Assembly: GCA_020724265.1 (NCBI GenBank)
Contig: DYHH01000003.1
Span: forward strand, 180,682-244,681
Length of the DNA: 64,000 nucleotides
Direction: 5' to 3'
Source: Melioribacter roseus
GTDB taxonomy: Bacteria; Bacteroidota; Ignavibacteria; Ignavibacteriales; Melioribacteraceae
Positions 23,465-37,539 of this stretch are shown here, piece after piece. The translations under genes were made by a program, and so were the position numbers. How positions within the stretch are numbered: position 1 is the stretch's first letter; every line of letters starts with the position of its first letter. The notes below the pieces were generated by a model. It made no database searches, had not been told where the DNA came from, and was given only the letters and a program-made list of their open reading frames with translations.

Positions 23465-24286
23465 TTAAAGAATTGAAATCGTTTTCTTAATTAATCTTTC
23501 AAACATTACTTTTGATTTCTCTGCAGTTTCCATTACTTCTTGATGAGATAGTTTTTGAGGAGATATTCCCGCAGCATGATTTGTGATTAAGGAAATGGCA
23601 CCGACCTTCATTCCTAATTTTATTGCAAATATTGCTTCATGAACAGTTGACATTCCTACTGCATCAATTCCAAAATTTGCATACATTTTTATTTCTGCAG
23701 GACTTTCATAGCTGGAACCTTTAGTTAAAATGTATGTTCCTTCTTTCAATATTATTTTTTCGCTAATCGCTGCTTCTCTTATTATATTGTTAACCACTGA
23801 AGAAGGGAAGTCCAACAATTTATTTCTTTCTTCGATTGTTGCGAGTCCTAATAGATTTGTTATTTCTTTTTTTATGTTGATAGAATTTACATCCAAGATT
23901 AACATTAAATCACCGGGACTAAAGTTAGGATTAACGCCTCCGGCTGCATTTGTAAGAATAACAACTTCACAACCAAGTTCTTTAGCAATTAAAACCGGCA
24001 AAACACAATCCGAAAGAGGATAACCTTCATATATGTGAATCCTCCCTTGGAAAATCAGCAATTCTTTATCTGTATATTTTGAGAAATGAATGTATCCCTT
24101 ATGTCCTTCAACTGTAGATTTGGGATAACTTGGTAAAGAATCAGTAGGTATGGATTTCAAGGTATTTACTTTTTCGGCAAAATCACCCAACCCGCTTCCT
24201 AAAATCAAAGCTATTTTTGGTTTGAAAGGGGCTTCGGATTTTACTTTATCCAAAATGGGGCGGTATTTTTCATTCAAAGTTATCAT
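23465..24286 (-). CDS. punA: purine-nucleoside phosphorylase
   Basis: Cleaves inosine/guanosine with phosphate to base plus ribose-1-phosphate. Seen: ILGSGLGDFAEKV (phosphate loop), GHKGYIHFSKY, LTNAAGGVNPNFSPGDLMLI and the terminal IDAVGMSTVHEAIFAIKLGM with SLITNHAAGI. This is the trimeric, mammalian-type PNP family; 273 residues is normal. It starts one base after the nucleoside transporter stop and is the last gene of the cdd-tdk-transporter-punA salvage run. Confidence 0.95.
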   Translation of the reverse strand: MITLNEKYRPILDKVKSEAPFKPKIALILGSGLGDFAEKVNTLKSIPTDSLPSYPKSTVEGHKGYIHFSKYTDKELLIFQGRIHIYEGYPLSDCVLPVLIAKELGCEVVILTNAAGGVNPNFSPGDLMLILDVNSINIKKEITNLLGLATIEERNKLLDFPSSVVNNIIREAAISEKIILKEGTYILTKGSSYESPAEIKMYANFGIDAVGMSTVHEAIFAIKLGMKVGAISLITNHAAGISPQKLSHQEVMETAEKSKVMFERLIKKTISIL

Positions 24287-24287
24287 A

Positions 24288-25640
24288 TTAAAAAAGAATT
24301 CCAGCTAAAGTTGCCGTCATTAAAGTGGCCAATGTTCCGCCAATAACTGCTTTTATTCCAAGTGATGCAATATCTGTCCCACGATTGGGAGCAAGTGGAG
24401 TTATACCTCCCAACTGAATTGCTATTGAACTAAAATTTGCAAATCCGCACAAGGCATAAGTAGCCATTACTATTGCTTTCTCGTTTACTAATGACTTAAT
24501 TTCGATTAATCGGCTCATATCAAAATATGCAACAAATTCGTTTAGTACTACTTTAGTCCCGATTAAGCTTCCAAATTCAAGTGCGTTTTCCCAAGGCACT
24601 CCTATCGCAAAAGCCAAAAACTGGAGCACGAGCCCAAATAATAATTGCATACTTAATGGTTTTCCGAATTCTGTTTCAAAGAATGCATTCACTCCAAATA
24701 AATCACCAATTCCAATCAAGATATAATTAACTAAAGCTATTAAAGCTATAAAAGCAATTAACATAGCGCCAACATTTAAAGCTAATTTCAAACCATCACC
24801 GGCACCAACTGCAGCAGATTCGATAAAGTTGGAAGCATTTTTCTCAATATTTACTTTTACATCTCCTTTTGTTTCAGGTACTTGAGTTTCTGGAAAAATT
24901 ACTTTAGAAATTACTAGAGCAGCCGGAGCAGCCATCACACTTGCTCCTAATAAATGAGTTGCAAACATTAGCTGAGCTTCTTGAAGAGGTAATCCCATAG
25001 ATTGCGAAAATGAATGTCCCAACATTTGAATATATGCTGCCATTACACCCCCGGCAATCGTTGCCATTCCACCGGTCATTATGGTTAACAATTCACTTTT
25101 TGTTAATCCTTTTAGAAATGGTTTTATCATCAATGGTGCTTCGGTTTGACCAACGAAAATATTAGCAGTAACAGAAAGAGATTCTGCTCCGCTTGTGCCC
25201 ATTAATTTAGCCATTATCCAAGCCATCCCTTGAACAACTCTTTGCATAACTCCGAGATAATATAAAATCGACATCAAGCTGGCAAAGAATATAATAGTCG
25301 GCAATACCTGAAATGCAAAGAACATTCCGAGACTTCCTTCTTGTCCCGGACTAATAGCCAAATCACCAAATACAAACTGAGCACCTTCACCGGTAAAATT
25401 TAAAACAAGTACAAAGAAACTACTAACCCATCTAAAAAAATCTTTAGGCCAACCGAGAGGGGCAAAGAATTCTCCGAGGGATTCGCCTTTGATAATTAGA
25501 ATGGCAAATAAAAGTTGTAAACCCAAACCGGTAATTACCAATCTCCAATTAACTTTTGATTTGTTATTTGATAATAGAAATGCAATTCCAATAAGTACGG
25601 CTATTCCGATGATACCTCGTAAGATTGCAATAAAATCCAT
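24288..25640 (-). CDS. nupC: concentrative nucleoside transporter (NupC/CNT family)
   Basis: Cation-coupled nucleoside importer of 450 residues with about ten hydrophobic segments. Seen: the substrate/ion motif GQTEAPLMIKPFL, GGMATIAGGVMAAYI and ANFSSIAIQLGGITPLAPNR near the C-terminus, all CNT hallmarks. It is flanked by tdk (9 bp) and punA (1 bp), so imported nucleosides can be phosphorylated, deaminated or phosphorolysed by its neighbours. The symbol follows the CNT family rather than a proven ion specificity. Confidence 0.93.
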   Translation of the reverse strand: MDFIAILRGIIGIAVLIGIAFLLSNNKSKVNWRLVITGLGLQLLFAILIIKGESLGEFFAPLGWPKDFFRWVSSFFVLVLNFTGEGAQFVFGDLAISPGQEGSLGMFFAFQVLPTIIFFASLMSILYYLGVMQRVVQGMAWIMAKLMGTSGAESLSVTANIFVGQTEAPLMIKPFLKGLTKSELLTIMTGGMATIAGGVMAAYIQMLGHSFSQSMGLPLQEAQLMFATHLLGASVMAAPAALVISKVIFPETQVPETKGDVKVNIEKNASNFIESAAVGAGDGLKLALNVGAMLIAFIALIALVNYILIGIGDLFGVNAFFETEFGKPLSMQLLFGLVLQFLAFAIGVPWENALEFGSLIGTKVVLNEFVAYFDMSRLIEIKSLVNEKAIVMATYALCGFANFSSIAIQLGGITPLAPNRGTDIASLGIKAVIGGTLATLMTATLAGILF

Positions 25641-25649
25641 AGAATTTCC

Positions 25650-26228
25650 TTATTCAGATTCGGGAATATAATGACATTTTCTACATCTAGCTTCGTAACT
25701 ATCCGAAGCACCAACTAACACTCTATCTTGAGATTTGATTTTTCTTTGTGTTCTATCTGCTGGGTTTCCGCAATTAACACAAATTGCTAAGGTTTTTGTA
25801 ATGTATTCGGCAACGGCTAATAGCTGAGGCATTGGTTCAAATGGTATTCCTCTGTAATCTTGATCGAGTCCTGCTACAAGCACTCTTTTTCCGCTGTCTG
25901 CTAATTTATTACATACTTCAACAAGATCGCTTTCATAAAACTGAGCTTCATCAATACCGATTACTTGAGCATCTTGTGAGAGTTCCAAAATTTCTTGAGC
26001 TGATGTTACTACTTCAGAAGGGAGGGATTGTTCACTATGAGAAACAATTTTGTTCTCGGCATAACGATTATCAATCTTAGGTTTGAAAATTTTTACTCTT
26101 TGTTTTGCAATTTGTGCCCGGCGTAAACGTCTTATTAATTCTTCTGTTTTTCCGCTGAACATACAACCGGCAATTACTTCAATCCATCCGGTTTCTTTTG
26201 GTGTTGAGTGAGGTTGAAATTCCATCAT
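25650..26228 (-). CDS. tdk: thymidine kinase
   Basis: ATP-dependent phosphorylation of thymidine (salvage). Seen: P-loop GCMFSGKT (21-28), the DEAQFYESD Walker B motif (about 94), the lasso region, and a structural zinc site from [13 protein letters not shown] and CRKCHY near the C-terminus (type II TK1-like). Length 192 is usual. It starts two bases after cdd. Confidence 0.96.
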
Positions 26229-26230
26229 AA

Positions 26231-26626
26231 TTATTTTAAGAAATCTTCTCCAAATGAGTGGGGAATAAGTTCGGTTATTTTGTACTTTATAATTTCTTCT
26301 TTAGCATTGATTAATATTACATCCAAATCTTTTCCGCAAAGGTCTAATAATACTTGTCTGCAGGCACCACATGGCGGACAGTAATCTTCTGCATCGCTTG
26401 CAATTGCAATTGACTTAAACTTTCTTTGACCTTCTATAATTGCTTGAAATACTGCAGTTCTTTCAGCGCAAATTGTTAGACTATAAGAAGATGTTTCTAT
26501 ATTTCCACCATTATAAACTTTTCCGTCTTCAGCTAATAGCGCTGCACCAACGTGAAATTTTGAGTAAGTCGGCATTGCTTTTGACTTTGCTTCTACAGCT
26601 AACTTGCCGAGCGATAGATCATCCAT
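26231..26626 (-). CDS. cdd: cytidine deaminase
   Basis: Zinc enzyme converting (deoxy)cytidine to (deoxy)uridine. Seen: [12 protein letters not shown] substrate region, zinc/catalytic motif TICAERTAV (C53, E55) and [11 protein letters not shown] (C86, C89). The 131-residue length fits the homotetrameric small form. It appears to be the first gene of the nucleoside salvage run, 55 bp after the glycosyltransferase gene. Confidence 0.96.
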
Positions 26627-34424: not shown

Positions 34425-35660
34425 ATGGAACAGAAAAAACTCATACGCACTTTAGATTCGATAACTTCCCGTAGATTCAAAACTGAAAACGAAATGTTGG
34501 TAGAAGTTCTTGATCAAATTGTTGCAAGAGAGCAAATTAAAGTTACAGGTGGAAGAATTTGGAAATTAAATAAATTTCTAAAAGCTTACGAATTGATTTA
34601 TCAAACCGGCGATGTTCAAAAAATTCCATCGGATTTTAAACTTCCTCTTGAAGAGTACCCCATCTTTAAAGAGATAACAAAAGAAAGAACGGTTCTTGCT
34701 AATGAAACAAACAAATTTCTAATCAGCAAAGGAATTTTTAAGTATTCGGCATCCGGTGTCGGATTAAAAATTAAAGTTGCAGATGATAGATACTACGAAT
34801 ATTTATTAGTTGTGAACAGCGAAGAAATAAATGATGACCTCGGTTATACTTTAAATATCGTTGCAACAATACTAACTTCAAAGCTAAATGCATGGCGAGC
34901 ATCTGTTTCTAGAAAAGATTTGATTGAAGATATTGATAGAGCAAAACAATTACAAAAAAGCATACTGCCCGAACACGAATATTCATTTAACAATTATGAC
35001 TTATTCGGGATAACAGTTCCTGCTAAAATAATCGGAGGTGATTTTTTCGATTATCTTGAGATTGGTGCACAAGGTGACAGACTCGGCATTGCTGTCGGTG
35101 ATGCGGCATCAAAAGGTTTAGCTGCTGCCGCCGAAGCTATGTATATCTCCGGCGCATTAAGAATGGCAAGTACATTTGAAATTAAAATTTCTCCTCTGTT
35201 TTACCGGATGAATGAATTAGTCAATAAAATTTTTGAAGACGATAAATTTGCTTCACTTTTCTACTGTGAAATTTCGTCTGATAAAAAAGGATTATGCTTA
35301 TATGCAAACGCCGGTCACAATCCACCTATATTTTATCATAAAAGTAAAGATGAATTGGTATTGTTGTATCCAACTGGTCCCCTTATTGGGCCTGCACCTC
35401 ACTCAACTTATGATACAGATAGTTTTAATTTTAGCGCCGGTGATGTATTAGTAATTTTCACCGACGGTATTACGGAAGCGGCAAACGAAAAATTTGAGTT
35501 CTATGAAGAAAAACGCTTGGAGGATTTAATTAGGAAAAATTCTTCAAAAACTCCCAAAGAAATTGCTCTTGCAATAATTGAAGATGTATCCAAGTTTTCA
35601 ACAAATGACAGCAAATATCAAGACGATAAAACAATCGTAGTGATTAAGCGAAAGGTATAA
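34425..35660 (+). CDS. SpoIIE/RsbU-type PP2C serine phosphatase with GAF-like N-domain
   Basis: 411 residues. The N-terminal half (about 20-160) looks like a GAF-type sensor fold without recognisable ligand residues. From about 165 a helix (AKQLQKSILPEHEYSFNNYDL) leads into the PP2C domain: IIGGDFFDY with D206, GDAASKGLAAAAEAMYI, NAGHNPPIFYH and IFTDGITEAANEKFEFYEE, the metal-binding Asp/Gly pattern of RsbU-like phosphatases, which dephosphorylate anti-anti-sigma factors. It ends one base before the iron-sulfur protein gene, so it is coupled to the pduS/pduT-like pair. Target unknown. Confidence 0.88.
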   Translation: MEQKKLIRTLDSITSRRFKTENEMLVEVLDQIVAREQIKVTGGRIWKLNKFLKAYELIYQTGDVQKIPSDFKLPLEEYPIFKEITKERTVLANETNKFLISKGIFKYSASGVGLKIKVADDRYYEYLLVVNSEEINDDLGYTLNIVATILTSKLNAWRASVSRKDLIEDIDRAKQLQKSILPEHEYSFNNYDLFGITVPAKIIGGDFFDYLEIGAQGDRLGIAVGDAASKGLAAAAEAMYISGALRMASTFEIKISPLFYRMNELVNKIFEDDKFASLFYCEISSDKKGLCLYANAGHNPPIFYHKSKDELVLLYPTGPLIGPAPHSTYDTDSFNFSAGDVLVIFTDGITEAANEKFEFYEEKRLEDLIRKNSSKTPKEIALAIIEDVSKFSTNDSKYQDDKTIVVIKRKV

Positions 35661-35661
35661 A

Positions 35662-36975
35662 ATGTCGTTAGACAAAAAAATATTTGATGCCGGAGTTGTT
35701 GGTGCCGGTGGTGCAGGTTTCCCAACTCATGTTAAAGCAAAATCTAAAGTTGAATTTGTACTTGCAAACGGTGCCGAATGTGAACCGTTGATTCATAAAG
35801 ATTATGAAATTATGAGAAATTTTCCGAAAGAAATTGTTCATGGCATGGAATTGATGATGCAGAATACTAATGCAAAGAAAGGTTACTTCGGCATAAAAGC
35901 AAAAAATGCGGATGCAATGGAACTTATCCAAAATGAATTTTCCAACGGGAAAATTGAAATGACAATTTTGGGAGATTTTTATCCCTCCGGTGATGAATAT
36001 GAATTGGTTTATGAAGCAACAAAACGCTTGATACCACCGCACGGCATCCCGCTTGATGTGGGTTGTGTTGTCAATAATGTAGAGACTTTTTATAATATTA
36101 GCAGAGCTTCAGAAGGTAAACCGGTAACGGAAAAATTTGTTTGTATTGCCGGTGCCGTAAAAAATCCATCTACATTTTTTGCTCCGGTAGGAACAAGTTT
36201 TGAAGAATTGATTAAACACGCCGGAGGCGCAACCGTTAATGATTTCGGTGTTTTTATAGGCGGACTTTTAATGGGGAGTTTAACTTTTGATTTATCCGAA
36301 GTTATTACCAAAACAACAGCTGCGTTAATTGTATTACCGAAGAATCATTATATGATTAATAGGATGGAACGCCCGAAAGAAGATATGAACAGAATCGGGA
36401 AATCAGCTTGCGATCAATGTACATATTGTACCGAATTCTGTCCTCGTTATTTGCTGGGTTATGATGTTCAACCCCATAAAGTAATGAGGTCACTTGTCTT
36501 TACCACATCAGGAAAAGAATTGTGGAATCAATATGCAGATTTATGTTGTGCTTGCGGTTTATGTTCATTGTATGCATGTCCGGAAGATTTATATCCACGC
36601 GAAGCCTGTGTTCAAAGCAAAGAAGAAATGAAAGCAATGGGACAAAAATATGAACAGCAAAAACCTGTGAAAGTTCATCCTATAAAAGAGGGAAGAAGAG
36701 TTCCGCTAAAACAGTTAAGAAAAAGACTGAACGTTGATGAATATGAAACACACACTCCTTTTACAAAAGAAAGCCCGAAACCAAATTCTGTAAAAATCAT
36801 GTTGAAGCAGCATGCCGGTCCTCCGGCAAAAGCTGTATTAAGCATCGGAGATATTGTAAATATTGGAGATGTAATTGCAAAACCCGAAGAAGGAAAACTT
36901 GGTTCGGTTATTCATGCATCAATTAGCGGAAAAGTTACACACATAAATGAAGAATTTATAAGAATATCAAAATAG
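35662..36975 (+). CDS. PduS/RnfC-like iron-sulfur SLBB protein
   Basis: 437-residue electron-transfer protein. N-terminal part begins GVVGAGGAGFPTHVKAKSKV and has NGAECEPLIHKDYEIMR, the Gly-rich FMN/NADH-binding layout of RnfC/NuoF-like subunits; a SLBB domain lies in the middle; then two 4Fe-4S motifs CDQCTYCTEFCP (about 252-263) and CCACGLCSLYACP (about 293-305). This matches PduS, the cobalamin reductase of propanediol microcompartments, better than RnfC (about 440 residues, same order). It is followed by a PduT-like shell gene but no other BMC gene is present in the window, which is unusual. Confidence 0.88.
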   Translation: MSLDKKIFDAGVVGAGGAGFPTHVKAKSKVEFVLANGAECEPLIHKDYEIMRNFPKEIVHGMELMMQNTNAKKGYFGIKAKNADAMELIQNEFSNGKIEMTILGDFYPSGDEYELVYEATKRLIPPHGIPLDVGCVVNNVETFYNISRASEGKPVTEKFVCIAGAVKNPSTFFAPVGTSFEELIKHAGGATVNDFGVFIGGLLMGSLTFDLSEVITKTTAALIVLPKNHYMINRMERPKEDMNRIGKSACDQCTYCTEFCPRYLLGYDVQPHKVMRSLVFTTSGKELWNQYADLCCACGLCSLYACPEDLYPREACVQSKEEMKAMGQKYEQQKPVKVHPIKEGRRVPLKQLRKRLNVDEYETHTPFTKESPKPNSVKIMLKQHAGPPAKAVLSIGDIVNIGDVIAKPEEGKLGSVIHASISGKVTHINEEFIRISK

Positions 36976-36987
36976 AAAGGTTTGGAA

Positions 36988-37539
36988 ATGGTAATGAATT
37001 CACTTGGATTAATAGAATTGACAAGCATTGCTGCCGGAATGCAAGCAGCGGATATAATGTTAAAAACTTCGCAAGTTGAATTGGTTTTATCACGCACAAT
37101 TTGTTCGGGCAAGTATATGGTATTAATATGCGGTGAAGTTGCCGAGGTTCAATCTGCAGTTGATAATGCAGCCAGTCAAATTGATTTTGCAGTTATAGAT
37201 ACCTTTGTAATTCCTCATGTTCACCCCGATGTATTTCCTGCATTATCAGGGCATACTCTTGCAACTGAATTAGAATCTTTGGGAATTATTGAATCATTTT
37301 CTGTTGCATCATTAATTGAAGGCGCAGACGCAGCAGTAAAAGCAGCAAAAGTTCAATTGATAGAAATTCGTCTTGCAATGGCGCTCGGAGGTAAAGCTTT
37401 TTGTACACTAACCGGTGAAGTTGCTGCTGTAAGAAGTGCCGTTGATGCCGGCGCTCAAATTATTGCGGATAAAGGTCTTCTTGTAAACAAAGTTGTAATT
37501 CCTCAACCAAGAAAAGAATTGATGAGTGAGATGATATAA
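36988..37539 (+). CDS. tandem-BMC (BMC-T) protein, PduT-like
   Basis: About 183 residues with two bacterial-microcompartment shell domains (about 5-90 and 95-175; LGLIELTSIAAGMQAADIML and IESFSVASLIEGADAAVKAA). The pore loop of the first domain has TICSGKYMVL with C39, the position where PduT binds a central 4Fe-4S cluster through the trimer's cysteines. The start is ATG 36988, with AAAGG seven to eight bases upstream; an upstream in-frame TTG exists. It follows the PduS-like gene by 12 bp, the natural electron-transfer partner. No pentamer, hexamer or enzyme genes of a compartment are visible. Confidence 0.85.
   Translation: MVMNSLGLIELTSIAAGMQAADIMLKTSQVELVLSRTICSGKYMVLICGEVAEVQSAVDNAASQIDFAVIDTFVIPHVHPDVFPALSGHTLATELESLGIIESFSVASLIEGADAAVKAAKVQLIEIRLAMALGGKAFCTLTGEVAAVRSAVDAGAQIIADKGLLVNKVVIPQPRKELMSEMI

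Follow-up and report, generated by a model that had tools for sequence, protein, structure and literature searches.

The adjacent pduS-like and pduT-like genes in the window (the whole 64-kb stretch of DNA that was analyzed) are best explained as an outlying part of an SPU-like metabolosome that degrades deoxyribose and has its genes dispersed over the chromosome, with PduS and PduT as its presumed electron outlet; we place the probability of this reading at roughly 0.8. Its parts differ in strength. The pair almost certainly belongs to the dispersed microcompartment (BMC), and this BMC is very probably a deoxyribose one; the electron-outlet role, argued by analogy from known homologues, is somewhat favored. 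The initial annotation had called the pair an 'orphan', a term that does not fit, since shell genes and extension-bearing enzymes are encoded in the same genome.

The pduS-like and pduT-like pair and its surroundings

The window, with a GC content of 34%, lies on contig C10 of a 3.77-Mb genome (designated G000) of 99.98% completeness. Its relevant features are as follows.

23465-26626, minus strand: nucleoside salvage cluster, assigned by Pfam, the phosphorylase also by NCBIfam
34425-35660, plus strand: SpoIIE/PP2C-type phosphatase gene (PF07228), ending one base before pduS
35662-36975, plus strand: pduS-like gene, 437 aa, with NADH/FMN domain, SLBB, two 4Fe-4S motifs and C-terminal RnfC_N barrel
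36988-37539, plus strand: pduT-like tandem-BMC (BMC-T) shell gene with two PF00936 domains and pore cysteine C39

By their Pfam domains, the PduS-like and tandem-BMC genes reported in the initial annotation are indeed real and adjacent. In the first, Complex1_51K, SLBB, Fer4_17 and RnfC_N (PF01512, PF10531, PF13534, PF13375) all scored above the Pfam cut-offs, the four domains being those listed for PduS in PMC6325248. The tetracysteine 4Fe-4S motifs, C250/C253/C256/C260 and C295/C298/C301/C306, were invariant in all 11 aligned sequences. RnfC proteins are the nearest solved relatives of PduS, both by sequence and by fold; in contrast to RnfC, the window protein carries its RnfC_N barrel at the C-terminus and scored below the rnfC NCBIfam cut-off (235.9 vs 245.95 bits). 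The predicted model of PduS was used for fold class only, since its Fe-S region partly has a pLDDT below 50. Among 11 relatives in named records, six were labelled Ignavibacteria, Ignavibacteriales or Melioribacteraceae, and the closest, 94% identical, was from an Ignavibacteria MAG.

The second open reading frame contains two BMC domains (PF00936, E 1.6e-45). Its start is given as TTG 36982 in the ORF list, but aligned orthologues favor ATG 36988; the latter yields a protein of 183 aa in which the pore cysteine is C39, the position originally claimed for it. All 11 aligned sequences retain C39, which corresponds to the cysteine of 3pac, and the motif C-x-G-K-[YF] was found in all 26 PduT rows that scored above 100 bits, two of which are the window's own gene. 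The AlphaFold model (pLDDT 89) matched a Desulfitobacterium tandem BMC protein (TM 0.93) and the PduT crystal structures 3n79 (Salmonella) and 3pac (TM 0.90-0.91); structure prediction thus upholds the BMC-T fold that had been proposed. As the TIGR02526 eut_PduT equivalog cut-off was not reached (128.7 vs 250.3 bits), the protein is referred to as 'PduT-like'.

The pair shares with Pdu and glycyl-radical BMCs the PduS domain set, the two tetracysteine motifs, the PduT pore cysteine and the adjacency of the genes, as described in PMC2982820 and PMC6325248. It differs from them in that no shell, B12 or glycyl-radical gene was noted beside it, and in the SpoIIE-type phosphatase gene directly before pduS. 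The latter is a possible operon partner of pduS; in 11 of the 20 PduS loci fetched, a gene of this type was no more than 60 bp away from pduS. No other shell gene was detected in the 64-kb window, where PF00936 matched only the pduT-like gene and PF03319 had no match. Further upstream, at 9 kb from the pair, the salvage cluster encodes a purine nucleoside phosphorylase, an Na+-dependent nucleoside transporter, thymidine kinase and cytidine deaminase, and was unmentioned in the initial annotation. It is plausible that this cluster could supply deoxyribose-1-phosphate upstream of the BMC.

Shell genes and candidate cargo elsewhere in the genome

The absence of other microcompartment genes, as first stated, holds for shell genes in the window and fails for the genome as a whole. 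Besides the window's BMC-T, G000 encodes two BMC-H and three BMC-P proteins. Their genes occupy the three sites listed here, which brings the shell genes to four sites in all.

C18, ~143.2-143.7 kb: adjacent BMC-H pair, the second gene with a long acidic extension
C18, ~35.1-35.6 kb: adjacent BMC-P pair
C52: single BMC-P gene (bmcP3)

Upstream of the BMC-P pair, at a distance of 0.7 kb and separated from it by two small ORFs, is deoB, the phosphopentomutase gene; a DeoC gene is situated ~8 kb from the BMC-H pair. The acidic extension of the second BMC-H (L005:18483-19154) ends in a domain of the LNVHELRKLAR...FPIKGREISKANR type, which is also present in at least five other genomes; this C-terminal domain had no Pfam match at E values up to 1.

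SPU BMCs, described as acting on products of DNA degradation, have DeoC and RpiB in common, along with AldDh (PMC8217296), and the likeness of G000 to them lies in the presence of a DeoC-type aldolase (PF01791), an RpiB-type isomerase (PF02502) and an acylating AldDh. DeoC passed the TIGR00126 equivalog cut-off by a wide distance (279.2 vs 117.3 bits), DeoB passed its NCBIfam equivalog cut-off, and AldDh scored narrowly above the TIGR02518 cut-off for acetylating acetaldehyde dehydrogenase (620.4 vs 620.1 bits). In DeoC, ~65 residues precede the barrel, starting with a helix-like segment of the encapsulation-peptide type, and the C-terminus of AldDh forms a conserved tail that is likewise of this type. 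Both the helix-like extension and the tail recur among fetched rows from many families. By their appearance and the company they keep, they are putative encapsulation peptides. When single sequences were shuffled, amphipathicity was significant in 12 of 39 DeoC extensions as against 26 of 39 AldDh tails. As a control, 20 short DeoCs from shell-negative genomes were compared, and none aligned before query residue 57. Both lysine motifs of DeoC were kept in 40 of 41 rows. The patterns for the catalytic cysteine of AldDh fitted 16, 22 and 30 of 42 rows, and this cysteine is claimed only for the G000 enzyme, where it was read directly. In DeoCs outside families 1 and 2 (L035-L054), the linker contains a CKDGICTDGLCVVHN-like cysteine cluster, possibly a metal site.

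The search for RpiB was prompted by the guess of an SPU-like system, of which RpiB is the other marker. G000 indeed has a single RpiB (PF02502), with an N-terminal extension of ~63 residues. When a profile of 30 such extensions was compared with the whole of E. coli EutQ, it aligned with the EutQ N-terminus at an hhalign score of 42.7 (E 1.4e-7); shuffling only the first 70 residues of EutQ 50 times gave 14.1 at best. The EutQ-like N-terminus constitutes a difference from SPU BMCs. The extended RpiB (L158:1456-2109, minus strand; rows of L173-L202) has Asp where two aligned solved RpiBs have Cys, as counted in all 25 rows that fitted the pattern out of 30. We take this Cys to be the catalytic one; the Asp in its place makes the reaction of RpiB uncertain, and the Asp-type extended enzyme may act on a different substrate.

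PduL phosphotransacylase (PF06130) was not found in the G000 genome, in which the system differs from both SPU and PDU BMCs; this does not bear on EUT, since in the eut operon of E. coli EutD takes its place. An encapsulated Pta was considered as the CoA recycler and rejected, as the two PTA-family matches above cut-off were, by eye, without a tag; one of them resembles a malic-enzyme fusion. With PduL not found and Pta lacking a visible tag, CoA recycling in the lumen is unexplained. In G000, DeoC, RpiB and AldDh are predicted cargo, associated with the shell by co-occurrence rather than by locus.

Dispersed positions and co-occurrence across the class

Gene neighborhoods were compared in 20 PduS, 20 BMC-P, 20 BMC-H and 30 RpiB loci and in 37 DeoC neighborhoods, which were fetched by the author's choice, mostly one genome per genus. 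In all 20 PduS loci, pduT was located downstream of pduS with a gap of at most ~0.5 kb. The BMC-P pair had deoB no more than ~0.75 kb upstream in 17 of 20 loci and was followed by rpoD in 19 of 20; the BMC-H pair stood close behind relA-yqgF in 15 of 20; folD was near deoC in 20 of 37 neighborhoods. In 23 of 30 loci, as counted by hand, the gene within 50 bp upstream of rpiB was the same; by eye it encodes a sugar-phosphate guanylyltransferase.

In genome G097, a single contig, the parts occupy seven sites in unrelated neighborhoods, the neighboring sites being 14 kb to 2.2 Mb apart if the contig is circular. The G000 type therefore differs from SPU BMCs in not forming one locus. A single main locus of shell and enzyme genes was found neither in G000 nor in its single-contig relatives G097 and G133. 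A full BMC locus elsewhere in the genome had been named in the initial annotation as a finding that would refute it, and here the outcome was unusual: the genome does have a set of shell and enzyme genes, which is scattered rather than assembled in one place. G079, a relative, does have such a locus: RpiB, DeoC, BMC-P, AldDh and BMC-H are contiguous, two more BMC-P genes follow downstream, and all three enzymes carry extensions, that of RpiB differing in sequence. This gene set corresponds to the SPU gene content, and it ties the same enzymes directly to a shell.

Contiguous BMC loci of another type, with a different AldDh, also occur in the same class (L056, L057, L095 and L137); PduS/PduT are present in L056, L057 and L095, and a class II aldolase in L057, L095 and L137. 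Genome G013 (L137) carries both such a contiguous locus and the dispersed set.

Scattered shell genes might be regarded as relics of a decaying microcompartment, given that the genes are dispersed, that PduL was not found, and that a stop interrupts pduS in the assembly of the single-contig genome G133 (L107). However, the reading frames are open in G000, the pore cysteine and the first Fe-S motif are retained in the fetched rows, and the dispersed positions keep the same neighborhoods in several families, all of which render decay very improbable.

The distribution of the shell genes, the extended enzymes and PduS was followed in 149 genomes of the class, for which at least 90% completeness had been requested. 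Among the matches listed, PF00936 was found in 57 genomes (56 above cut-off), PF03319 in 54, and both in 54; PF00936 without PF03319 was listed for G096 (weak, E 6.5e-4), G112 and G145. The extended DeoC (query start at or before residue 35) occurred in 49 genomes, the extended RpiB (query start at or before residue 3; among the matches listed) in 49, the G000-type AldDh (E below 1e-140) in 51, and full-length PduS (E below 1e-100) in 40, and in every instance these genomes were among the 54 with both shell families. The presence/absence tables were typed by hand from the search listings. Short DeoC and short RpiB were common outside the 54.

Full-length PduS was therefore never seen without both shell families in this sample (40 of 40), on which ground the proposal of a compartment-independent PduS-PduT redox complex, favored by the lack of any other shell gene in the 64-kb window, is rejected as having next to no likelihood. 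The other option originally offered, that the pair serves a compartment encoded elsewhere, is well supported by the shell and extended-enzyme genes of the genome and by their co-occurrence with the pair across the class.

Several borderline cases define these counts. Ten 'extended' DeoCs aligned only from residues 23-35; the extension was present in the five that were fetched (G013, G035, G070, G108, G126), and the other five (G044, G066, G086, G091, G138) were counted by alignment start alone. Five shell-positive genomes were without an extended DeoC in the count: G029, where a contig end breaks the gene, G079, whose DeoC (start 45) and RpiB (start 64) both fall outside the 49s, and G059, G088 and G102, which have contiguous BMC loci with a different AldDh. 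No RpiB match was listed for G060. Just beyond the thresholds, the shell-negative G039 has a DeoC whose alignment begins at residue 41, together with an AldDh of 45% identity (E 1.3e-110); it may have lost its shell or may use an unrelated pathway. In G003, also shell-negative, an RpiB match beginning at residue 28 contains internal stops. AldDh rows were dropped at 44-45% identity in G039 and in second copies of G063 and G142, and at 31% in G102; eight PduS matches at 33-36% identity, one each in G000 and G145 included, were set aside as putatively RnfC-like.

Fisher p-values for co-occurrence were 5e-34 and lower. These p-values overstate independence: three changes suffice for the DeoC tree, of which well-supported branches force just one, so that most of the co-occurrence goes back to common descent. 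In the tree, the length rule labelled G145 long, though the leader there is non-homologous. Families 2, 4, 13 and 18, which have members with and without the system, are more informative. Here the two shell families were missing together with the extended DeoC, the extended RpiB and AldDh, except that G102 and G088 have contiguous loci of a different kind.

Within the 50 genomes of the dispersed type, a set that includes G029, PduS was present in all 37 with at least four BMC-domain matches and in none with two or three (0 of 13, with G035, which has three matches, assigned to the 13 lacking BMC-T). Thus, the PduS/PduT pair, absent from 13 of the 50, behaves as one optional module. The 37 and the 13 genomes together make a natural presence/absence series for asking what PduS-PduT contributes to a microcompartment.

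It could be argued that the BMC handles another sugar phosphate, with a class II aldolase, encoded ~3.7 kb from bmcP3, as signature enzyme and DeoC as a secondary one. This aldolase gene is near bmcP3 on C52 in G000 and likewise placed in G097, the contiguous PduS/PduT loci of G059 and G088 have a class II aldolase beside pduT, and Melioribacter roseus has a PVM-like locus, a type with class II aldolase, according to PMC4207490. On the other hand, the G000 enzyme lacks any obvious extension at its termini (Pfam match 6-180 in 220 aa), for which reason it was set aside as signature enzyme; ddl, rarA and dprA, by eye ordinary neighbors, lie between it and bmcP3; and G059 and G088 have another AldDh, with identities of 27% and 25%. 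The extensions and the co-occurrence with the shell belong to DeoC, RpiB and AldDh, and we consider the class II aldolase a rather improbable signature enzyme.

Proposed pathway and comparison with known microcompartments

In a deoxyribose BMC of this kind, deoxynucleosides would be imported and then phosphorolysed, the window's salvage cluster being a presumptive source, and DeoB would convert the product to deoxyribose-5-phosphate. In the lumen, DeoC would free acetaldehyde, which AldDh would turn into acetyl-CoA with formation of NADH. PduS would oxidize the luminal NADH via FMN and two 4Fe-4S clusters. The PduT-like trimer would take up the electrons at a 4Fe-4S cluster in its pore and release them to a cytosolic acceptor, so that NAD+ would be regenerated inside the shell as the electrons exit.

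If the pair serves the dispersed BMC, PduS could instead be a cobalamin reductase for a B12-dependent cargo, as in Pdu. However, the candidate cargo identified here (DeoC, RpiB, AldDh) does not require B12. The characterized PduS is a corrin reductase, which speaks for such a role; in the same account, this Citrobacter freundii protein is an NADH-dependent flavoprotein with two 4Fe-4S centers that interacts with PduT (PMC2982820). Against it, PduS also occurs in the B12-independent glycyl-radical BMCs (PMC6325248) and is reported in Atribacteria SPU loci (PMC4207490), the latter being a further likeness to SPU BMCs. The cobalamin-reductase role is thus judged unlikely. For the electron outlet, a review proposes an electron transfer complex of this kind for other BMCs and cites +99 mV as the midpoint potential of the cluster in PduT (PMC6325248).

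Dispersed shell genes have been described before. FRAG BMCs, found in Ignavibacteriae and others, combine a BMC-P triplet with shell genes spread over as many as six places (Sutter 2021, PMC8217296), and the G000 shell genes indeed show several locations and a BMC-P triplet. The same article assigns FRAG BMCs no obvious signature enzyme (PMC8217296); here, in contrast, the shell is linked to DeoC, RpiB and AldDh that bear extensions of microcompartment type. The G000 BMC would presumably correspond to one of the numbered types, FRAG1-7. For Melioribacter roseus, seven BMC-P genes in five loci were reported in addition to the PVM-like locus (Axen 2014, PMC4207490), and in two other phyla constitutive expression was suggested as something that may make clustering unnecessary (PMC4207490). 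No paper joining Ignavibacteria or FRAG BMCs to deoxyribose was recognized among the main texts of open-licence PMC articles.

Taken further, and as a tentative proposal to which we give slightly less than even odds, ignavibacterial FRAG BMCs would be housekeeping organelles for deoxyribose from DNA salvage. Their operon would have dissolved into stable insertions of single genes or gene pairs in unrelated housekeeping operons, and the products of the dispersed genes would be brought together by targeting peptides alone. PduS-PduT, gained or lost as a unit, would act as an Fe-S wire across the shell to cytosolic acceptors and would be the main means of luminal NADH reoxidation in most lineages. 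The reading given here provides the ignavibacterial FRAG microcompartments with a specific and testable function, namely deoxyribose breakdown, and suggests that the genes of an organelle can stay scattered over the chromosome yet be lost together. A DeoC with EP-like extensions has also been described at distal positions in some HO-type genomes (PMC8217296).
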